Below, in pieces: positions 47,570-60,054 of a DNA stretch of 64,000 bases. The notes beneath the pieces were generated by a model that made no database searches, was not told the DNA's origin, and saw only the letters and a list, made by a program, of their open reading frames with translations. Every line of letters begins with the position of its first letter. Position 1 is the first letter of the stretch. This DNA comes from Methylobacterium sp. NMS14P. Its GTDB lineage: Bacteria; Pseudomonadota; Alphaproteobacteria; Rhizobiales; Beijerinckiaceae. The stretch is taken from NCBI RefSeq assembly GCF_028583545.1, contig NZ_CP087106.1, positions 2,898,501-2,962,500 of the forward strand. Direction: 5' to 3'. A program made the position numbers and the translations under genes.

Positions 47570-49066
47570 TCAAAGATGCGGATCGTCGGCCGCTCGGAGC
47601 CTGCCCGCCGCGATGGCCTCTCGGAACGCCTGATAGTCCGCCTCATTCCGATCTCCGTAGGCCATCGCCCAATCGGCCAGGGCTACCCGCAGGTCGGCGC
47701 GGCCGTCATGACCGCAATAGCCCGCGATCGCCGCCGCATCCCCAGTCCGCGCGTGGGCCTTGGCGAGCAGCGCGCCGTAGGCGTGCGAGAAGTACAGCAG
47801 CGATCGGCCCGTCATGCGCGCGACTGGGATCTCGCCCTTCATGTTCTTCATCTGCCGCACGTAGAATGGCCGCCCCTCGATCTTCGTCCAGCCCAGCAGC
47901 GGATCACCCACCGCCTGCAGCAGGCGCTGGCCGTAGATCACGCGCTCGCCCTCGTGATCGGCATAGGGCTTGGGCATGCCACGCACGTACGGCGCGTGGG
48001 CCGGTCGCACGGCTTCCTTGACCTGGAGGAAGAGCGCGTCCTGATCCGAATTGCCACACAGCAGCGCGACGTACGCGCGGGTGCCGACGCTGCCGACGCC
48101 GACGACGCGGTGTGCGACATCGACCACGTGGTAGCGGCTGAGCATGAACCGCCGCTCGCGCGGCAGCGTCTCGGCGTAACGCTCCAGGCCGGTGGTGACG
48201 GCCTCGCGCGTCGCGTCATCGACGCGGACGAGGATCGGCGGCTCCTCACGGAAGCGCCAGCCGCCATCCGTGCGCCGCTCACCCACTCGGTCGAGCAAGC
48301 TCGTGTTGTTCTTCCGCCGCGCCTTCTCGACGGCCTTGCGCACCACGGCCTGCGAACGCGCGTCGATCTCGATGCCTGCGAAGGCGAGGTCCTCGGCGCG
48401 CGCCGCGCGCTGCCAGACGTCGAGCGAACCGCGCGGGGCGAGGTCGTCCATCGTGTGCTGGTAACCCGCCACCGCGCTCAGCGCGGCTTGGCGCCGTTCG
48501 GCCGGCGGGACATCGGCATCCCGCGCGGCGACCTCGATGCTCGCGCACAGGCGCTTCAGGTCCCACTCCCACGGCCCGACCGTGACCTCGTCGAAGTCGT
48601 TGAGGTCGAGCACCACCTCGCCCTGGGGTGAGCCAAACAGGCCGAAGTTGGAGATATGGGCATCGCCGTTCATCACCACGTCGATCGCGCCGCGCGGTCC
48701 CTGTGCGAGATCCCAGGCCATGACCTGAGCGGCCCCGCGCAGGAAGGCGAACGGCGAGGACGCCATGCGGGCGATTCGCAGCGAGATCAGGTGCGACTGC
48801 CGACCCTCGTGGGCCGCTTCGATGAGCGCGACCGGGTCGGGACGATCGCGGGCGAGATCGAGCACGGCATGAGCCGAGTGCGGCAGTTCCAAGCGCAGGA
48901 TCTTGCCGGCGGCGCGGCGCTTCTCCCACGGCTCCACACCCGAGCGCAGGTCGATATGCGGGAAGTCCGCGAGGGGTTCGAGGACCGCCTCCTCGGCCGC
49001 TTCGATCACCGCTTCCTGCTCATCGACCACCGCCGAGGTATCCATGGGATGCGCTGACCGTTCCAT
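47570..49066 (-). CDS. DUF2252 protein
   Basis: 498 residues. The DUF2252 pattern is visible: LEAPHS-like region, ASSPFAFLRGAA, VVMNGDAHISNFG and DLNDFDEVTVGPWEWDLKRL, then a kinase-like C-terminal part. Members look like distant aminoglycoside-kinase folds of unknown role. It converges with the kinase gene (25 bp apart). Probably cytoplasmic. An alternative start (second Met at residue 8) is possible. Confidence 0.85.
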   Translation of the reverse strand: MERSAHPMDTSAVVDEQEAVIEAAEEAVLEPLADFPHIDLRSGVEPWEKRRAAGKILRLELPHSAHAVLDLARDRPDPVALIEAAHEGRQSHLISLRIARMASSPFAFLRGAAQVMAWDLAQGPRGAIDVVMNGDAHISNFGLFGSPQGEVVLDLNDFDEVTVGPWEWDLKRLCASIEVAARDADVPPAERRQAALSAVAGYQHTMDDLAPRGSLDVWQRAARAEDLAFAGIEIDARSQAVVRKAVEKARRKNNTSLLDRVGERRTDGGWRFREEPPILVRVDDATREAVTTGLERYAETLPRERRFMLSRYHVVDVAHRVVGVGSVGTRAYVALLCGNSDQDALFLQVKEAVRPAHAPYVRGMPKPYADHEGERVIYGQRLLQAVGDPLLGWTKIEGRPFYVRQMKNMKGEIPVARMTGRSLLYFSHAYGALLAKAHARTGDAAAIAGYCGHDGRADLRVALADWAMAYGDRNEADYQAFREAIAAGRLRAADDPHL

Positions 49067-49388
49067 CGACCTCGTCCGACCGCTTCAGACCACACCAACG
49101 GTTCGACCAGGGAATAAGCCCTTCGGCTCAACGTGGACTTAACCGCACACCACCCCGAGCGGCGATCCAGCCGTGACAAGGTCCGTCGCCTGCTCCGAGC
49201 CTCCTCGCGCGCGACCGTTCGAGGTAGCCGATTTGGTGTCGAACCGATCATTCTCGACCGCAGCCACTAAGACTATCGCCCGCGGGAGATCAGCTCAGCG
49301 GTCGACCTCTCACCACAAACCTGGAGCGCCTACATAGTCGCCGTATGTGCGCGTCAGCTCAGGTTCCCTCGTAAGCAGGTGTATCGCC
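49067..49388. other. Intergenic region, no feature seen
   Basis: About 320 bp between divergent genes. It probably holds both promoters. I see no RNA gene and only weak repeat-like segments. Confidence 0.4.
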
Positions 49389-50354
49389 ATGGAGAAGACG
49401 TTCACCGCCCAACGAGAGGACCGCCCCGGCACAACATGGCTCGAACGCTTCCGGGCGGGGCGGGACGAAGCCGAGCGATGGTATCTCGGAGATGGGAACG
49501 CCGAACGCCCATCGGCTTCCGAGTGCCGTGCCGCCCTGCTGCGTCACATGCCGGAACTTGTCCCGCACTACGATCACGTGTGCGGGCTGGTCGGAGACGA
49601 CGACCTGGCTCACCGCATGCTCAGCCACTATCGCCCAGCACCTCACCCGCAGGGTTGCAGCCAAGCCGTGTGGCTGGGCGACGATGGCCCAGCTCTGGTT
49701 CGCAACTACGATTATCCCCTCCCCATCATCACCGGGCGCATCGAACTCACCGCGTGGTCTCGGCGGCGCGTGATCGCGATGGCGCAACGACCCTGGGGCG
49801 GCTGCCTGGATGGGATGAACGACGATGGACTGGTCGCCAGTTGTACGCTCGGTGGTATGGCCAGGCGCGGGACGGGCTTCGCCATCATCCTGATGCTCCG
49901 CTACGTGCTAGAAACGTGCGGGTCGGTCGGGGAGGCCGTCGGCGCTCTGTGCCGCATTCCGGTCACCCAACTCCACAACGTCACGCTACTCGACGGGACG
50001 GGCGAGCATGCCACGCTCTTCCTCGGACCCCGGCGTGAGCCCGCCGTGACGCGGCTGAGGGCATGTACGAACCACCAAGAGGGGATGTCACCTGCATCCG
50101 GCTCAGCCCTGCGCCAGACCGTGCTGATGGACGCTCTGGGCGATCCTTTCGGAACATTGACGGGGCTGACGGTACTCTTCTTCGAGCCGCCGCTGTACTC
50201 GCGGAAGGCCGCGTTCACCACAGCCTACACAGCCGTGTACCGACCTGCAGAAAAGCGCGTCCATTATCTCTGGCCCGGGCAGCGTTGGAGCCAGACATTC
50301 GAGCGTTTCGTACCTGGGGCGTACAAGCACGACTATGGCGATCTCGAGCGGTGA
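49389..50354 (+). CDS. C45-family acyltransferase/hydrolase (Ntn hydrolase)
   Basis: 321 residues. Resembles acyl-CoA:6-aminopenicillanic acid acyltransferase-like proteins: the segment HPQGCSQAVWLG holds the expected nucleophile Cys90 (which becomes N-terminal after self-cleavage), followed by VRNYDYP and GCLDGMNDDGLVASCT. The active enzyme should form by autoproteolysis before Cys90. Probable amide hydrolase or acyl transferase on an unknown substrate. Stands alone. Confidence 0.8.
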   Translation: MEKTFTAQREDRPGTTWLERFRAGRDEAERWYLGDGNAERPSASECRAALLRHMPELVPHYDHVCGLVGDDDLAHRMLSHYRPAPHPQGCSQAVWLGDDGPALVRNYDYPLPIITGRIELTAWSRRRVIAMAQRPWGGCLDGMNDDGLVASCTLGGMARRGTGFAIILMLRYVLETCGSVGEAVGALCRIPVTQLHNVTLLDGTGEHATLFLGPRREPAVTRLRACTNHQEGMSPASGSALRQTVLMDALGDPFGTLTGLTVLFFEPPLYSRKAAFTTAYTAVYRPAEKRVHYLWPGQRWSQTFERFVPGAYKHDYGDLER

Positions 50355-50700: not shown

Positions 50701-51462
50701 CTAGACGTCGAGGGTCTTGCGCGCGAAGCTCTCGATGTAGTCCACGAGCTTGTCCGAGGCGGCGCCGGCGGCGTCGACGTCGCGTGCGGCCACCGCCTCG
50801 CAGACGTCGGCGTGGAGGTTGGCGGTCAGCGGCAGGTCGGCCGCCTGCTTGTAGTGCTGGTACCAGAAGCGCCGTGACAGGCCGGCCATGCTCTCAAGTG
50901 AGCGTACCGCGAACTCGTTGCGCGACGCGGACGCGATAAGGTCGTTGAACTGACGGTCCAGCCGCATGAACGCCAGGTCGTCCGACGCCGCGGCCGCCTC
51001 GCGCATGTCCTGCGCGAGGCCGGCGAAGACCTCCCGCTCCTCCTTCGTGGACCGCTCCGCGGCAAGGCGCGCGATCAACGCCTCCAGGACGCGCCGGGTC
51101 TCCAGCAGGCGCAGCTGTGTGCGCACGTTGATGTCGGAGACGAGGATGCCGCGACGGGGCATGACCACCACGAGCCCGTCGCGGGCGAGACGCTGCAGTG
51201 CTTCCCGGATCGGGGTGCGCCCAATCCCGAGGCGCTGGACCAGGTTCTGCTCGCCGAGCACCATGCCGGGCGGAAGCACGAGCGTCGTGATCATCTCCTC
51301 CAGCTGCTGATAGGCCCTGTCGGTGAGCGTCAGGTCGGGCAGGTCGTCACCGCCGGCCGTTCCGTCGGGCGACCCCTTCACAGCCTTCCTGGCTCGCTTC
51401 TCGCCATTCTTCGCGGCACGGACCGACGCCGTCTTCCCGGTCACGAAGTTCATGGACGACAC
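50701..51462 (-). CDS. GntR-family transcriptional regulator (FadR/FCD type)
   Basis: 253 residues. After a basic N-terminal tail (about 40 residues) comes the winged HTH (LVQRLGIGRTPIREALQRLARDGLVVVMPRRGILVSDI) and then a helical FCD effector domain with conserved Arg, Asp and His positions. Divergent from the MFS gene. A 16-bp sequence in the shared promoter recurs in front of the hydroxylase unit, so this protein probably controls both. Inducer unknown. Confidence 0.9.
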   Translation of the reverse strand: MSSMNFVTGKTASVRAAKNGEKRARKAVKGSPDGTAGGDDLPDLTLTDRAYQQLEEMITTLVLPPGMVLGEQNLVQRLGIGRTPIREALQRLARDGLVVVMPRRGILVSDINVRTQLRLLETRRVLEALIARLAAERSTKEEREVFAGLAQDMREAAAASDDLAFMRLDRQFNDLIASASRNEFAVRSLESMAGLSRRFWYQHYKQAADLPLTANLHADVCEAVAARDVDAAGAASDKLVDYIESFARKTLDV

Positions 51463-51535
51463 CCCTTATTCTGCCCGGTCCGCTCACCGCGCCGCATAAG
51501 GGTGCATGGTGCCGGGCGAGCCCCTACGCAAGGGC

Positions 51536-51551
51536 ATATCGCTGATATATC
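51536..51551 (-). promoter_or_regulatory. Probable GntR operator, site 1
   Basis: Read on the minus strand, GATATATCAGCGATAT lies between the GntR and MFS genes. It matches site 2 at 53114-53129 at 15 of 16 bases. It includes GATATATC, an inverted repeat of the kind FCD-type GntR proteins bind. Confidence 0.6.
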
Positions 51552-51616
51552 TTGCGTGGATTAGAAATATCCCGCAAAAGTGCCCGGCGCATACCAATAA
51601 CGCAGGGAGGCAAGAG

Positions 51617-53041
51617 ATGGCAGGGCAAATTGCGATACCGGCCGGCGACGCGCTGCCGGAACGGGCCACGACCGAGGTTCCAAGCCGCGTCGCGGCCGGG
51701 ACGAGCGCGGTGATCGCGGCGCGGCTGGAGCGCCTGCCGATGACCGCGTTTCAGCGCAATATCTTTCTCATCATCGCGACGGCGTGGTTCTTCGACTCGA
51801 TCGACCTCGGCTCGCTCACCTTCCTGCTCGGCTCGATCAAAACGGAGTTCGGCCTCTCCACGGCCCAGGCGGGCCTCCTGTCCAGCATGAGCTTCATCGG
51901 CATGTTCGCCGGCGCGGCGATCTCCGGGATGCTCGCCGACCGCTTCGGGCGTAAGGTCGTCTTCCAGATCAGCATGGTGTTCTGGGGCGTGGGCAGCGCG
52001 TGGTGCGCCTACGCGCCCGACGCGACCATGCTCGGCTACGCTCGCCTGCTGCTCGGCTTCGGCATGGGCATGGAGTTCCCGGTGGCCCTCGCCATCGTCT
52101 CGGAATTCCTGCCGACGGCCAAGCGCGGCCGCTACCTCGCGATCATGGAAGGGTTCTGGCCGCTCGGCTTCATCGCGGCGGGCTGCCTCAGCTACGTCCT
52201 GCTGAGCTACTTCGACTGGCGAGCCGTCTTCCTGGCGCAGGCCGTGCCGGCCCTGTTCCTGTTCGTGATCCGCTTCCTGGTGCCGGAATCGCCTCGCTGG
52301 CTCGCCGACCGTGGGCGGCATGACGAGGCCGATCGCGTGATGACGGACATCGAGAGGAAGGTCACCGCGCGTCTCGATGGTCGGCCCTTGGCCGAGCCGA
52401 AGGCGCTGCCCGAGCAGGCCCAGGGCGAGCGCCGCTTCTCGTTCCTCGAACTCTGGAGCCCGGGCTACGCGAGCCGCACGGTCATGATCTGGCTGACGTG
52501 GTTCTTCGCACTGCTCGGCTTCTACGGCCTCACCACTTGGCTCGGGGCCCTGCTGCAGGATGCGGGCTACAGCGTCGCCAAGTCGGTGACCTACACGATC
52601 CTGATCTCGCTCGCGGGCGTGCCGGGCTTCATCACCTCGGCGATCCTGGTCGAGCGCTGGGGCCGCAAGCCGACCGCCGTTCTGATGCTGCTCGGAAGCG
52701 CGGTCGCGGCCTACCTCTACGGCCACTCGCCCTCGTTCGCATGGCTGATCGCCTTCGGACTGATGATGCAGTTCTTCCTGTTCGGCATGTGGTCGGTGCT
52801 CTACGCCTACACCCCGGAGCTCTACCCGACGCGGGCGCGCGCGACGGGGGCCGGCTGCGCCTCGGCCGTCGGCCGGGTCGGCTCGCTCATCGGCCCCTAC
52901 GTCATCGGCATCATCTTGCCGACGCTCGGCCATGGCGGCGTCTTCGCACTGGGAGCCGGATCCTTCGTGATCGCGGCGGCGAGCGTGGCCTTCCTCGGCA
53001 TCGAGACCAAGGGCAAGTCGCTCGAAGCGATCTCGCACTGA
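51617..53041 (+). CDS. MFS transporter (aromatic/organic acid importer type)
   Basis: 474 residues, start with GGGAGGCAAGAG upstream. Twelve helices, sugar/aromatic acid:H+ symporter pattern: DSIDLGSLTF in helix 1, GMLADRFGRKV between helices 2 and 3, and PESPRWLADRGRHDEA at mid-protein. It is close in form to the NiaP/MhpT group. Divergent from GntR and just upstream of the hydroxylase cluster, so it probably imports that pathway's substrate. Confidence 0.87.
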   Translation: MAGQIAIPAGDALPERATTEVPSRVAAGTSAVIAARLERLPMTAFQRNIFLIIATAWFFDSIDLGSLTFLLGSIKTEFGLSTAQAGLLSSMSFIGMFAGAAISGMLADRFGRKVVFQISMVFWGVGSAWCAYAPDATMLGYARLLLGFGMGMEFPVALAIVSEFLPTAKRGRYLAIMEGFWPLGFIAAGCLSYVLLSYFDWRAVFLAQAVPALFLFVIRFLVPESPRWLADRGRHDEADRVMTDIERKVTARLDGRPLAEPKALPEQAQGERRFSFLELWSPGYASRTVMIWLTWFFALLGFYGLTTWLGALLQDAGYSVAKSVTYTILISLAGVPGFITSAILVERWGRKPTAVLMLLGSAVAAYLYGHSPSFAWLIAFGLMMQFFLFGMWSVLYAYTPELYPTRARATGAGCASAVGRVGSLIGPYVIGIILPTLGHGGVFALGAGSFVIAAASVAFLGIETKGKSLEAISH

Positions 53042-53113
53042 CCGGAACCGGCGGAACGCAGGCCGCTCCCGTCCCGCCGGACCGCCGAACATCACACGAC
53101 AGTGTTGACAGTT

Positions 53114-53129
53114 GATATATCAGTGATAT
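53114..53129 (+). promoter_or_regulatory. Probable GntR operator, site 2
   Basis: GATATATCAGTGATAT lies 30 bp before the small Cys-rich frame and about 285 bp before the hydroxylase gene. It differs from site 1 at one base. It marks a second promoter of the same regulon. Confidence 0.6.
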
Positions 53130-53158
53130 TTTGTAGCCAATCAAAGAGGGAGGGCGCC

Positions 53159-53350
53159 ATGTGCCAGACGGCTCGCAACGCGGATGACGGTCAAGGCCGT
53201 TCCGTCTGTCGGGGATGCGGCGGATGCCCTGCCAGGAAGCCCACGGCCCCCCTACGATCCGCAGCCGTCGTGGGGTCGCGTACCCGGCCGGGTGCCGTCG
53301 TCGGGGCCGCCCGTCCATCGAACACCCTCGTAGCGATGGCGACCTACTGA
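53159..53350 (+). CDS. Small Cys-rich protein or leader peptide, 63 aa
   Basis: The ATG has GAGGGAGGG six bases upstream, a strong ribosome site, directly after the second operator. The product contains Cys2 and a CRGCGGC cluster (CxxCxxC), a possible metal-binding motif, followed by a Pro/Arg-rich, low-complexity tail. It could be a metal-binding protein or a leader that affects translation of the hydroxylase gene 62 bp downstream. Confidence 0.4.
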   Translation: MCQTARNADDGQGRSVCRGCGGCPARKPTAPLRSAAVVGSRTRPGAVVGAARPSNTLVAMATY

Positions 53351-53412
53351 ACAACAACGTCGAAGCGGCCGCAGCGGCTGCCTTAAGAGCCAACGAACAA
53401 AGGAGAGGTGCA

Positions 53413-54204
53413 ATGGAACTCGCGGTCACTAAGATGAGCGAGCGGCAGAGAAACTTCCGGGCCAACTACCGGCAGCGCGTCGCGGGCTGGTACAACGGTC
53501 TTCTGCACATCGCCATCATCTACACCATCGGCCTGACGGCACTGTATATCTACATCTCGAACATCAAGGCGCCGACCTTGGCGGAACTCGTCACGGTGCC
53601 GGTCGTGTTCCTGTTCTGCAACTTCTTCGAGTGGTGGCTGCATCGCTACGTGATGCATCGGCCGCAGAGCAATCCTATCGGGCGCGCCGTCTACAATCGG
53701 CATACCCTTCAGCACCACCAGTTCTTCACCGACCACGAGATGCGCTTCGCCGATCATCGCGATTACCGGGTGACGTTCTTCCCGCCCTACGCGCTGGCGA
53801 CCTTCACGCTGATGTCGATTCCGGGCGCCATTGTGCTTGGCAACGTGTTCACGCCGAACGTCGGCTGGCTGTTCATCACCACGACGACCAGCATCTACAT
53901 GATCTACGAGTTCATGCACTTCTGCTGCCACGTCGAGGACAACTGGTTCGTCCGCAACATGCCGTTCATCAATACGAACCGGCGTCACCACACCGCGCAT
54001 CACGACCAGTCGATCATGATGGAGCGGAACATGAACCTCACCTTCCCGATCATGGACTGGCTGTTCGGCACCTCGGATCTCAACCGTGGCCTGCTCGGCA
54101 CGCTCTTCAACGGCTACGACACGCGCCACGTGAAGACCGACATGCGCAAGACTTCGCGTACGCCCGGCGCCGCCGAGCCCGGCGCGATGCAGCCGGCCGA
54201 GTAG
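53413..54204 (+). CDS. Fatty acid hydroxylase/sterol desaturase superfamily (di-iron membrane enzyme)
   Basis: 263 residues from the ATG at 53413, with AGGAGAGG upstream. Four hydrophobic segments, with the His clusters that bind the two irons: HRYVMH, HTLQHH, FMHFCCH and RRHHTAHH. Enzymes of this group hydroxylate or desaturate lipid-like substrates with O2. It heads the second unit of the GntR-controlled cluster. Substrate unknown. Confidence 0.88.
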   Translation: MELAVTKMSERQRNFRANYRQRVAGWYNGLLHIAIIYTIGLTALYIYISNIKAPTLAELVTVPVVFLFCNFFEWWLHRYVMHRPQSNPIGRAVYNRHTLQHHQFFTDHEMRFADHRDYRVTFFPPYALATFTLMSIPGAIVLGNVFTPNVGWLFITTTTSIYMIYEFMHFCCHVEDNWFVRNMPFINTNRRHHTAHHDQSIMMERNMNLTFPIMDWLFGTSDLNRGLLGTLFNGYDTRHVKTDMRKTSRTPGAAEPGAMQPAE

Positions 54205-54207
54205 GCC

Positions 54208-54240
54208 CACGCCACACGCCACACGCCACACGCCACACGC
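54208..54240. repeat. Tandem heptanucleotide repeat CACACGC
   Basis: One partial (CACGC) and four full units of CACACGC in a row, between the hydroxylase stop and the next gene. Repeat number changes by slippage would alter the gap between the two genes. Confidence 0.75.
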
Positions 54241-54288
54241 GACGCGCGGCGCCGACGGGGCGCCGCCCCGACACTTGGGAGGTCTTCC

Positions 54289-54678
54289 ATGAGCATGATC
54301 GAACCGAACGTCCTAGCCCTCGCGTGGTTCGCCCTCTTCGCCGGCGTCGCCAGCGTCGGGTTCTACGTCCTCACGGGCATGTTCCCGCTCGAAACCCGTC
54401 CCGACTTGAGGGCGCGGCCGCTGGGCCTGCTGATGCTGGCCGCCAACGTCGTGCTTCTGCTGGCGCTGGTAGGGGGCGGCCTCACCTACGGTGCCGCTAA
54501 CCTGCGCTGGACGAGCCTCGTCATCGTGGGCGGCTTGGCCGTGCTGTTCGCGCCGGGCCTGTTCAACGTCTGGCCCCAGCGTTGGCGTGACGGTCTGGCC
54601 GGGCTCGCCATCGTGCTGGCCGGGCTCGGCGGCTCGGTCGGCCTGCTGCTGCAGGTCGGCTCCGTCTTCACGCTGTAA
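54289..54678 (+). CDS. Small integral membrane protein (about four helices)
   Basis: 129 residues, GGGAGG-type ribosome site upstream. Hydrophobic segments at about 9-30, 46-66, 75-90 and 103-123. No known family. It follows the hydroxylase gene on the same strand and is likely part of a membrane complex with it or with the next small membrane protein. Confidence 0.7.
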   Translation: MSMIEPNVLALAWFALFAGVASVGFYVLTGMFPLETRPDLRARPLGLLMLAANVVLLLALVGGGLTYGAANLRWTSLVIVGGLAVLFAPGLFNVWPQRWRDGLAGLAIVLAGLGGSVGLLLQVGSVFTL

Positions 54679-54706
54679 CGACAACCACCGTTCCGGGAGG
54701 AATCCG

Positions 54707-54925
54707 ATGCCGTTTCCCATCAAGTTCGGCTTGTCCGTCGCCGTCGCCTTGGCCGCGCTCGCGGGGTGGTTCTACATGGGCTACCTCGGCCAGGTCGGCC
54801 CGCGCTGGGCCGTGGCCTTCCTCGGCCCCTTCATGGTCTTCAGCCTCTGGATCTTCCCCGAGGTGATGCGCAGCCGCTCCGACGGCCGCACCCCGCGCCA
54901 CCAGATGAGGGAGGTGCGGTCGTGA
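54707..54925 (+). CDS. Small membrane protein, two helices
   Basis: 72 residues, start with GGGAGGAA upstream. Two transmembrane segments (about 6-26 and 33-52), then a basic tail (RSRSDGRTPRHQMREVRS) that should be cytoplasmic. No known family. The stop overlaps the next gene's GTG start (GTGA), so the two are translated together. Confidence 0.72.
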   Translation: MPFPIKFGLSVAVALAALAGWFYMGYLGQVGPRWAVAFLGPFMVFSLWIFPEVMRSRSDGRTPRHQMREVRS

Positions 54926-55218
54926 ACAAGGTCTACGTGGGGGACCGGACCATCGACGGGATCGTCGTCACGGTCGACGGCGAGCCGCTCCCGGACAGGA
55001 CGGACGCAAAGCGCTACTCGCGCAACGGCTTCGAGTGGAGCTACGAGGGGCCTGAGCCCTCGCAGCTCGCCTACGCGATGCTGGTCGACCACCTCGGCGA
55101 CACGGCCCAGGCGGAACGCCTCCAGCCGCAGTTCATGCGCAGCGTCGTGGCCAACTTCCAGAACGAGTGGGAGATGACGACGGCCGACATCGACCGCGTC
55201 CTGCAGGGCCTGCGCTAG
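54922..55218 (+). CDS. DUF6166-like protein
   Basis: 98 residues from the GTG at 54922. The pattern VYVGDRTIDGIVVTVDGEPL, then FEWSYEGPEPSQLAYAML and a C-terminal helix, matches what I recall of the DUF6166 family. No function is known. Coupled to the preceding membrane protein and co-directional with the PanB-like gene. Confidence 0.65.
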   Translation: MNKVYVGDRTIDGIVVTVDGEPLPDRTDAKRYSRNGFEWSYEGPEPSQLAYAMLVDHLGDTAQAERLQPQFMRSVVANFQNEWEMTTADIDRVLQGLR

Positions 55219-55279
55219 GCGCCTAATACAATTTCGGCGGCCTGGATCGGCCGCCTCGACCAGCGAAGATATTCAAGGG

Positions 55280-56185
55280 ATGAACATGAGCGCGACCGCG
55301 GCGACGGCATCCAATGAGTCCGCAAAGAAGGCGGGCAAGCGGACGATCCTCGACATCCGCGCCGCCAAGCAGACCGGCGAGAAGTTCGTCTACATGTCCG
55401 TGCCCGACTACACCTCCGCCCGGTGGGCTGAGATGTCGGGCGTCGATGTCGCTGTCGTCGGCGACAGCCTCGCCATGGTCGCCCATGGCCATGCCAGCAC
55501 CATACCCGCGACGATGGACATGATGATCATGCACGCAGCGGCGGTTCGGCGCGGTGCGCCGGATACCTTCGTGCTCGGCTGCATGCCCTACCAGAGCTAC
55601 AACACCGTCGACCGGGCCCTGACGAATGCCACGCGCTTCATGCAGGAAGGCCAGTGCGATGCCGTGAAGCCGCAGGGCGGCAGGAGCCAAGCCCACATCC
55701 TGAAGGCGCTGGTCGACGCCGGCATCCCGACCGCCTCGCACATTGGGTTGACGCCGCACACCATCGCCAACTTCGGCGGCTTCAAGATCCAGGGCCGCAC
55801 TGCCGAGGCCGCGATGAAGATCCTGGAGGATGCGCTGGCCATCGAGGATGCCGGCTGCTTTATGCTGGAATTCGAGGCCGTCCCAGCACCGATCGCAAAA
55901 CTGATCTCCGAGCAGCTCACGATACCCACCATTGGCATCGGTGCTGGTGCGGGTTGCGACGGCCAGATCCTGCTCTGCTACGACCTACTCGGGGTGTTCA
56001 CGGACTTCAAACCGAAGTTTACGAAACGCTACGCGAACCTGACCGAGGTCGCAGTAACCGGCATCCGCAAGTACGTCGAGGAAGTGAAGGCGGTAGCCTT
56101 TCCCGACGGCGACCACTCCTATCGGGTGGATCAGGCCGAGTACGAAAAGTTTCAGACGCTGGTCGAACGGCGGAAGCATGTTTGA
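55280..56185 (+). CDS. PanB-like enzyme (ketopantoate hydroxymethyltransferase family)
   Basis: 301 residues, TIM-barrel fold. Metal-binding region VVGDSLAMV, catalytic-face segment CMPYQSYNT, KPQGG, and the C-terminal TIGIGAGAGCDGQILLCYD are all in PanB order. PanB adds a hydroxymethyl group to a 2-oxo acid using methylene-tetrahydrofolate. It is not next to panC, and it sits in a regulated catabolic-type cluster, so a related aldol-type reaction on another 2-oxo acid is equally possible. Confidence 0.8.
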   Translation: MNMSATAATASNESAKKAGKRTILDIRAAKQTGEKFVYMSVPDYTSARWAEMSGVDVAVVGDSLAMVAHGHASTIPATMDMMIMHAAAVRRGAPDTFVLGCMPYQSYNTVDRALTNATRFMQEGQCDAVKPQGGRSQAHILKALVDAGIPTASHIGLTPHTIANFGGFKIQGRTAEAAMKILEDALAIEDAGCFMLEFEAVPAPIAKLISEQLTIPTIGIGAGAGCDGQILLCYDLLGVFTDFKPKFTKRYANLTEVAVTGIRKYVEEVKAVAFPDGDHSYRVDQAEYEKFQTLVERRKHV

Positions 56186-56273
56186 GGTCTAGTTGACGTC
56201 GGCGTCCTGTCGATTGCCAAAGCCCTGCCGGCGAAAGACTTCTTGAAACCGAACCGGGAAGGACGCGACCCCC

Positions 56274-56708
56274 ATGCCGACCTATGCATTCTCGACCGCG
56301 AAGGAACTGACGCCCCAGCAACGCGCGAAGCTCGTCGAGAACGTCACGGACATTCATCATGTGGAAGCGATCGCTCCACGGTATTTCGTGCAGGTCGTAT
56401 TCTACAAGGTCGAGCCCGATTTGATCTTCATCGGCGGCGAAGCAGCCTCACATGACCACGTTTGGGTGCGGGCCGATATTCGCTCCAGAAGAACGAAGGA
56501 CCAGAAGGCGAAGATGCTCCGCCGCATTATGCGGGAGGCCAGCGAGATCCTCGGCATATCGGACCAGGACGTGTGGGTGTACATCTCGGACATTCCAGCG
56601 CAGGGCGTGCTGGAATTCAGGAACGTGCTGCCGGAACCGGGTGACGAGGAGCAATGGCTGGCGTCGTTGCCTAGCGCCTTGCGTGATAAGCTTAAATATA
56701 CTGCTTGA
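56274..56708 (+). CDS. Tautomerase-superfamily protein
   Basis: 144 residues. Begins Met-Pro-Thr-Tyr, giving the N-terminal catalytic Pro after Met removal. Two beta-alpha-beta halves, as in the longer members (cis-CaaD or malonate-semialdehyde-decarboxylase type). Last gene of the cluster. It would isomerise an enol or hydrolyse/decarboxylate a 3-oxo acid in the pathway. Confidence 0.82.
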   Translation: MPTYAFSTAKELTPQQRAKLVENVTDIHHVEAIAPRYFVQVVFYKVEPDLIFIGGEAASHDHVWVRADIRSRRTKDQKAKMLRRIMREASEILGISDQDVWVYISDIPAQGVLEFRNVLPEPGDEEQWLASLPSALRDKLKYTA

Positions 56709-59418: not shown

Positions 59419-60054
59419 ATGATGGGACACTCTGCATATGATCCGGCCACGAAAGGGCGACCGGCCTGGGACGCTGGCCGCAAGCTCGGGGCCAACCGAG
59501 CCCTCAAACCTCAGCAAGTCTGGGCCATCTGGTTCTGGCTCGATCGCGAACGGCGTACACGCGACCGGGCAATGTTCGATCTCGCCATCGACAGCAAGCT
59601 GCGCGGCTGCGACATCGTCAAGCTCAAGATTGGCGACCTCGTCAGCGGTGGTCGCGTCCGGAGCCGCGCCATCGTCATCCAGCGCAAGACCGGCCGACCG
59701 GTGCAGTTCGAATTGCTCGAGCCCGCGCGTACCAGCATCCTGGTATGGCTGGAGGCCAGGGGCGGAACGCTCGACGACTATGCCTTCCCGAGCCGGCTCG
59801 ACGGCGTCACGCACATCAGCACCCGGCAGTATGCGCGCCTGGTCGATGAGTGGATCACGGGCGTCGGGCTGCGCAGCGAGGACTACGGAACCCATTCCCT
59901 CCGCCGCACGAAGGCGTCGTTGATCTACAAGCGGACCGGCAACCTGCGTGCCGTCCAGATTCTGCTCGGCCACACCAAGATCGAGAGCACGGTCAGGTAC
60001 CTCGGTGTGGACGTCGAGGATGCTCTGACTCTAGCCGAAGGTACTGAGATTTGA
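59419..60054 (+). CDS. Short tyrosine recombinase (integrase)
   Basis: 211 residues, all of them catalytic domain with a short N-terminus. Catalytic residues: Arg62 (SKLRGCD), Lys90, His159 and Arg162 (THSLRRT), His185 (LLGHTK) and Tyr194 (TVRYLG). This minimal integrase (KLGANRALKPQQVWAIWFWL type) is widespread on plasmids and elements of Hyphomicrobiales. It looks intact. ATG at 59419 or 59422, GAGGAG upstream. A terminator follows. Confidence 0.88.
   Translation: MMGHSAYDPATKGRPAWDAGRKLGANRALKPQQVWAIWFWLDRERRTRDRAMFDLAIDSKLRGCDIVKLKIGDLVSGGRVRSRAIVIQRKTGRPVQFELLEPARTSILVWLEARGGTLDDYAFPSRLDGVTHISTRQYARLVDEWITGVGLRSEDYGTHSLRRTKASLIYKRTGNLRAVQILLGHTKIESTVRYLGVDVEDALTLAEGTEI

Follow-up and report, generated by a model that had tools for sequence, protein, structure and literature searches.

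The stretch of DNA analysed here (hereafter the window) comprises 64,000 nucleotides of Methylobacterium sp. NMS14P, whose genome amounts to 6.88 Mb in 3 contigs, and its positions 50,701 to 56,708 hold a gene cluster with a GntR-type regulator, a transporter, a membrane di-iron hydroxylase and an enzyme resembling PanB, the ketopantoate hydroxymethyltransferase. The regulator gene (50701-51462, - strand) encodes both the helix-turn-helix domain (PF00392, 64.5 bits) and the FCD domain (PF07729, 79.8 bits) of the FCD-type GntR proteins, each over the Pfam cut-off, and it is divergent from the gene of a major facilitator superfamily (MFS) transporter (51617-53041, + strand; PF00083/PF07690). On the + strand also lie the genes of the hydroxylase, a member of the FA_hydroxylase superfamily (53413-54204; PF04116), of two small membrane proteins, TM1 (54289-54678; 129 aa, about four membrane segments, no family) and TM2 (54707-54925; 72 aa, two membrane segments, a conserved WxFPEV motif), of a DUF6166 protein (54922-55218; PF19663) whose start overlaps the TM2 stop, of the PanB-like enzyme (55280-56185; PF02548/TIGR00222), and of a tautomerase of the cis-3-chloroacrylic acid dehalogenase (cis-CaaD) type (56274-56708; best PDB match 3n4g). 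All eight genes had been listed in an earlier reading of the same letters (the original prediction), and using open reading frames and Pfam/TIGRFAM profiles we found each of them with its stated family. Two exact copies of a 16-bp sequence, which we treat as a putative operator, lie in the control regions: copy 1 (51536-51551, - strand) between gntR and the MFS gene, and copy 2 (53114-53129, + strand) upstream of the hydroxylase unit, where a sigma-70-like promoter, TTGACA-16-TATTTT (53105-53132, + strand), overlaps it.

Conservation was examined in 87 loci, namely the best 80 of at least 291 confirmed relatives of the hydroxylase and 7 plasmid loci; the plasmid loci were drawn from 10 of 24 plasmid records, and three more distant ones (L014-L016) were left out of the 87 and make 90 loci when included. 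Each locus included up to 8-9 kb of flanking sequence on either side of the hydroxylase gene, and absences are not firm in the 14 loci having less than 5 kb on one side; genes were called from codon-position GC and homology by a scheme of our own, so that minor neighbours may be wrong. In this set, DUF6166 was present in 79 loci and lay no more than 5 kb from the hydroxylase in at least 76; the count of 79 retains two matches (L076, L084) overlapping an over-long hydroxylase frame. Homologues of the FCD-GntR protein were found in 73/87 loci (57 within 5 kb of the hydroxylase), of TM2 in 72 (65 within 1.5 kb) and of TM1 in 57. Zinc-type alcohol dehydrogenase (Zn-ADH) occurred in 37 loci, the PanB-like enzyme in 29, MFS transporters in 29, tripartite ATP-independent periplasmic (TRAP) transporters in 20, and two ATP-binding cassette (ABC) permease types in 16 and 7. 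A sample of 289 genomes of the class Alphaproteobacteria gave a similar picture for the central pair: the hydroxylase was detected at E<=1e-100 in 12 genomes, and DUF6166 lay within 5 kb in 11 of these, the exception (G191) having a stop within its hydroxylase. Conversely, 11 of 19 DUF6166 places were near such a hydroxylase, and the domain also occurs without it. The genus sample had the hydroxylase in 19/111 genomes, and the cluster of M. nodulans is plasmid-borne. The 87 loci come from many families; the unit occurs across the Alphaproteobacteria, and some Beta- and Gammaproteobacteria have relatives of it. In-frame stops in the hydroxylase were seen in two copies (G191 C46 and G382 C74). 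The co-occurrence asserted in the original prediction therefore stands for the hydroxylase, DUF6166 and GntR genes and for the PanB-like gene, and largely falls for the tautomerase.

The putative operator connects these genes in a second way. The 16-mer, GATATATCAGYGATAT, has two exact sites in the entire genome, which are copies 1 and 2, and two further sites at 3 mismatches, one of which overlaps the second exact site; allowing up to 2 mismatches revealed no third site in the window, and 100 shuffles gave 0. The original observation, of a sequence that lies in both control regions and was noticed nowhere else, was thereby borne out. When the 16-mer, taken from the window alone, was sought in the 400 bp upstream of the hydroxylase in the 87 other loci, a site with at most 3 mismatches was present in 53, compared with 25 of 1740 windows placed at random in these loci. 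A 17-bp palindrome designed with knowledge of the relatives matched, at up to 4 mismatches, in the 300 bp preceding the hydroxylase in 69 of 88 loci (the 87 and the window) vs 41/3000 in the control; the Fisher p of ~1e-93 is overstated, because the loci are related and the pattern was derived from them. Bases beyond the palindrome are also conserved (T at -2 in 60/69, A at +18 in 59/69), and the extended operator, TGATATATCA-S-TGATATATYA, contains a palindromic decamer twice, 11 bp apart. Scanning whole loci at up to 3 mismatches yielded 84 sites in 59/87 loci, of which 80 were placed no more than 350 bp upstream of a cluster gene or at its start, the other 4 lying elsewhere; this placement is given without a control. 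The genes preceded by such sites include those of the hydroxylase, GntR, DUF6166, MFS, DctP, the ABC receptor (SBP), the PanB-like enzyme and Zn-ADH, and since the operator stands before so many different cluster genes, it points to a single regulon shared by lineages whose importers differ. The GATATATC core near the gap between gntR and the MFS gene also recurs in several Methylobacterium loci (for instance L017, L018 and L020-L022). Judging from these predicted sites before gntR and the other cluster genes, binding by the GntR protein is likely, and this protein is probably the repressor of the cluster. The conserved linkage and the operator together support the original view that an importer and a membrane di-iron hydroxylase form a single system linked to the GntR protein.

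Among six near relatives (L017-L022), TTGACA stands just upstream of the operator in five and TTGACG in the sixth. The leader between operator copy 2 and the hydroxylase (53130-53412, + strand) is about 280 bp long, with 266-283 bp in L017-L022 and only 31-32 bp in L023-L026. A Cys-containing 63-aa frame within it (53159-53350) was considered as a gene or leader peptide and rejected, as it has matches in 3/90 loci and no family; the frame is poorly conserved, and the leader differs between near relatives.

The window hydroxylase scores 42.5 bits for PF04116 (cut-off 31), and its histidine clusters (H77/H82, H97/H101/H102, H169/H173 and H192/H193/H196/H197) are invariant in 8/8 aligned sequences, which together place it in the FA_hydroxylase/sterol desaturase superfamily. 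It is 98% identical to the enzymes of Methylobacterium dankookense and Methylobacterium sp. UNC378MF, and a search for solved relatives by sequence gave no credible one, only weak unrelated matches. Unlike the superfamily in general, it is linked with DUF6166, two small membrane proteins and importers. TM1, examined by hydropathy and alignment, has no His or Cys among the residues kept in at least 85% of 53 aligned rows; the TM2 alignment contained 54 rows. The DUF6166 protein belongs clearly to its family (PF19663, 110.5 bits vs a cut-off of 27), its predicted model (pLDDT 91) had no convincing match among PDB structures, and the family was not mentioned in any paper of the one open-access library searched; it is a probable helper protein. 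Members of the hydroxylase superfamily with known function mostly act on lipids or sterols, and relatives of the window enzyme carry the annotation 'sterol desaturase family protein', both of which would suit a hydroxylase that modifies a membrane lipid or hopanoid, with the transporter and downstream enzymes serving an unrelated catabolic function under a common regulator. We consider this explanation unlikely, because the hydroxylase, DUF6166 and the operator remain constant while the importer types switch, because the recurrent neighbour families identified so far, in an incomplete annotation, are importers, the regulator and oxidoreductases, and because the sporadic presence in the genus and the M. 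nodulans plasmid are more in keeping with a nutrient pathway. PMC5789663 describes a 'fatty acid hydroxylase' of rhizobial symbiosis plasmids that is induced by root exudate and has <40% identity to orthologues elsewhere. In L015 and L016, distant hydroxylases (~40% identity) lie beside genes of a GMC oxidoreductase, a three-subunit molybdenum hydroxylase and an AMP-binding protein, a neighbourhood that looks like stepwise methyl-group oxidation.

The importers offer a view of the substrate class. The window MFS protein scores 281.6 bits for TIGR00895, under the cut-off of 418.55, and its nearest group is the aromatic acid/H+ symporters; it is a probable importer. Other loci carry TRAP or branched-chain-type ABC importers instead of MFS. 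The best PDB matches of the cluster TRAP receptors include TakP (2hzk), 2zzv (lactate-receptor type) and 7ug8 (ketoacid-binding protein), with 5cm6 and 4pet also high. TakP is the 2-oxo-acid TRAP receptor of Rhodobacter sphaeroides (PDB 2hzk/2hzl), in which, according to an excerpt of PMC1839085, Arg177 and Tyr100 bind the carboxylate, and the cation ligands are Glu214, Trp215 (main chain), Gln156 and Glu240. In all 18 DctP rows aligned, Arg177, Tyr100, Glu214 and Trp215 are kept, that is, four of the six site residues. These residues, together with the PanB fold, suggest a 2-oxo or 2-hydroxy acid as the substrate class, and the 2-oxo-acid theme of the original prediction gains support from the TRAP-type versions. 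A gene of a PhyH-type dioxygenase was observed in 17/87 loci (e.g. L063 8004-8900), in many cases flanked by the TRAP genes and the hydroxylase; it is present in 16 of the 20 TRAP-type loci, and some versions of the cluster thus have two different oxygenases.

The PanB-like enzyme resembles PanB in family and differs from it in the active site. It exceeds the curated cut-offs of PF02548 (323.6 bits) and TIGR00222 (290 bits), shares the fold family and about 40% identity with PanB, and keeps Asp45, Ser46, Lys112, His136 and Glu181 (E. coli PanB numbering); its predicted fold model has a pLDDT of 81. For comparison we used 32 canonical PanBs (29 from other genomes of the class, one from this genome and two PDB entries), all of which have Asp84 and Glu114; position 25 is Tyr in 31 of them and position 179 is Val or Leu in all 32. 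We take Asp84 and Glu114 to be metal-site residues, Asp84 presumably being a Mg ligand in E. coli PanB. In contrast, the window protein has Cys and Gln at these two positions, and Cys84, Gln114, Glu179 (for Val179) and Pro25 (for Tyr25) were found in 30/30 PanB-like proteins. A quick tree parts the two groups by one separating branch (SH-aLRT 100), and among the 120 nearest proteins in a large database the GCMP motif occurs in 120 and the KPQGG motif in 119. The genome carries a canonical panB elsewhere (C1:2212625-2213389). The PanB-like gene is also linked to the hydroxylase: it was found in 11 of 111 genomes of the genus sample (12 copies), with 12/12 copies within 1.3 kb of the hydroxylase, and in the class sample it lay within 5 kb of the hydroxylase in 5/6 genomes, the sixth being a fragmented one with the PanB-like gene and a partial hydroxylase match on different contigs. 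From these sequence comparisons, the PanB-like proteins form a separate subfamily and are probably not ketopantoate hydroxymethyltransferases, and a rebuilt active site with a new reaction may be supposed. The reading as an ordinary PanB was rejected on residues (30/30 vs 32/32), not by assay, and the PanB role in the original prediction is left unsupported. If the enzyme nevertheless worked forward, a one-carbon unit would be added to a 2-oxo acid and the cluster would make a branched hydroxy acid; the profile scores and the five kept residues speak for this, and we find it improbable, because two acidic residues invariant in canonical PanBs are replaced throughout the PanB-like proteins, and because the importers and the alternation with dehydrogenases point to breakdown. 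Among the 120 nearest relatives, each name shown is that of the pantothenate enzyme, and vitamin-pathway predictions that count PanB-like proteins would err.

This alternation concerns the genes downstream of the hydroxylase. The PanB-like enzyme and Zn-ADH occur together in 0/87 loci (Fisher p 8e-10, ignoring kinship), and iron-type alcohol dehydrogenase (Fe-ADH, 3 loci) and short-chain dehydrogenase/reductase (SDR, 2 loci) are found only where both are missing. We read these four enzymes as possible alternative users of one hydroxylated product.

The tautomerase stands apart from this set. Its best PDB match is 3n4g (E 5.1e-39, residues 2-140), and 7ms0 and cis-CaaD entries also match near full length. 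The catalytic set of the cis-CaaD/Cg10062 type, which we take to be Pro1, His28, two Arg, Tyr and Glu, is present when read by eye (Pro1, His28, Arg69, Arg72, Tyr102 and Glu113), with the residues past 28 one position off the numbering of that type. Unlike the 3n4g/cis-CaaD group in general, the gene lies beside this cluster, and it does so in a few Methylobacterium only: it is present in 2/87 loci, and of 22 copies in 17/111 genomes of the genus 3 are beside the PanB-like gene, one of these with an in-frame stop (G305). Two more tautomerases in the genome (G000 C2:520439-520861 and C1:431088-431510) are 72% and 67% identical to the window copy, which brings the total to at least three. A single pathway with the full set, in which the tautomerase would act on the product of the PanB-like enzyme, could draw on its position on the same strand, 88 bp from the PanB-like gene, and on the same arrangement in G382, G305, L022 and L019 (truncated frame), some of which may be the same genomes; given the low counts and the two further copies elsewhere, we consider this very unlikely. 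As a core member of the set, proposed in the original prediction, the tautomerase was rejected; its distribution fits best with a local addition in certain Methylobacterium.

Around the cluster, a gene of a C45-family autoproteolytic acyltransferase/hydrolase (AAT; 49347-50354, + strand) lies directly upstream of gntR, and it had no match in the 90 loci, which places it outside the conserved module. A DUF2252 protein gene (47570-49066, - strand) is located upstream of the cluster region, and a phage-integrase-family recombinase gene (59419-60054, + strand) is found 2.7 kb beyond the tautomerase; the recombinase and the sporadic presence in the genus hint at a mobile region.

Starting from the observed linkage of the genes, the conserved operator, the PanB-like subfamily, its non-overlap with Zn-ADH and the TRAP site residues, our best explanation of the whole, which we hold with slightly more belief than doubt, is a repressed catabolic unit that imports and hydroxylates a small acid, with the window carrying one version of a widespread system. 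The FCD-GntR protein, acting at the extended operator, would repress gntR itself as well as the transporter gene and the hydroxylase operon, and the substrate or a product would relieve this repression. A transporter that depends on the lineage (MFS here, TRAP or ABC elsewhere) would import the acid, for which the binding proteins of the TRAP versions and the fold of PanB make a 2-oxo or 2-hydroxy acid bearing a methyl group most likely. Using O2, the membrane di-iron hydroxylase would convert the methyl into a hydroxymethyl group, with TM1, TM2 and DUF6166 possibly assisting it, and the hydroxylated product would be taken over by an alcohol dehydrogenase or, in the window, by the PanB-like enzyme. 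The latter would most likely cleave a C-C bond of a hydroxymethyl 2-oxo acid by a retro-aldol or related reaction, which is the least certain step. According to an excerpt of PMC7610986, E. coli PanB is able to work as a folate-independent aldolase on formaldehyde and 3,3-disubstituted 2-oxo acids, and this activity requires a divalent metal; the aldolase activity makes a retro-aldol reaction on a hydroxymethyl 2-oxo acid reasonable for a PanB-like relative.

Several points weigh against this explanation. First, with Asp84 and Glu114 lost and a metal needed by the aldolase, the aldol chemistry may be gone from the PanB-like enzyme. Second, the evidence for a 2-oxo acid applies directly only to the TRAP-type loci and not to the window, whose importer is of the MFS type and which has no TakP-type receptor, and even in the TRAP receptors the two other site residues are changed in 18/18 DctP rows (Gln156 to Glu, Glu240 to Gln). 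Third, the promoter scan at operator copy 2 is at chance level, with 1 TTGACA...TATTTT pair found and 0.9 expected per region, and the candidate promoter is weak alone. Fourth, 16/87 loci have none of PanB-like, Zn-ADH, Fe-ADH and SDR, and the PanB-like gene is missing from 8 of the 19 hydroxylase-bearing genomes of the genus, where the genes after DUF6166 vary between genomes: a same-strand thiamine pyrophosphate (TPP)-enzyme gene in L020 and a matching gene, by its first residues, in L103; an opposite-strand [2Fe-2S] subunit gene and, by our own reading, a molybdenum-hydroxylase gene in L026/L104; a DJ-1/PfpI gene and an amino acid permease gene in L025/L110; opposite-strand genes in L106 and L107; and a contig end in L105. 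The PanB-like enzyme is thus an optional step. Finally, a quick hydroxylase tree explains the PanB/ADH labels with only 3 changes, and the independent pairs (5 on well supported branches) are too few for significance, which weakens the exclusivity as proof of replacement. It is possible, and at the same time less probable than replacement in our judgement, that the two enzymes do not replace each other at all, and that lineages use different substrates with a non-overlap due to shared ancestry. That account is favoured by the tree; replacement is favoured by the position of both genes downstream of the same operator, by hydroxylases 65-98% identical to that of the window in PanB-like and ADH loci, and by Fe-ADH and SDR, which likewise appear only where both are absent.

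In conclusion, the original prediction found a real system, and its claims on control and co-occurrence are confirmed and extended here; its GntR-linked importer/hydroxylase system and its 2-oxo-acid theme are supported, and the roles it gave to PanB and the tautomerase are not. Its statement that no described pathway has this combination also agrees with one open-access library, in which no description of the gene set was found by title or abstract start, and in which the one paper naming both 3-methyl-2-oxobutanoate hydroxymethyltransferase and sterol desaturase was unrelated at the same level. We also propose, as a tentative and rather doubtful extension, an oxidative one-carbon release route, in which the hydroxylated methyl group of a branched 2-oxo acid would be cleaved off by the PanB-derived enzyme as formaldehyde or methylene-tetrahydrofolate; if true, this would be pantoate chemistry in reverse, fed by O2 and useful to methylotrophs, of which this Methylobacterium host is presumably one. 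The cluster belongs to a widely shared but unstudied gene set, and its conserved operator and hydroxylase/DUF6166 pair offer a direct handle for the search for its substrate.

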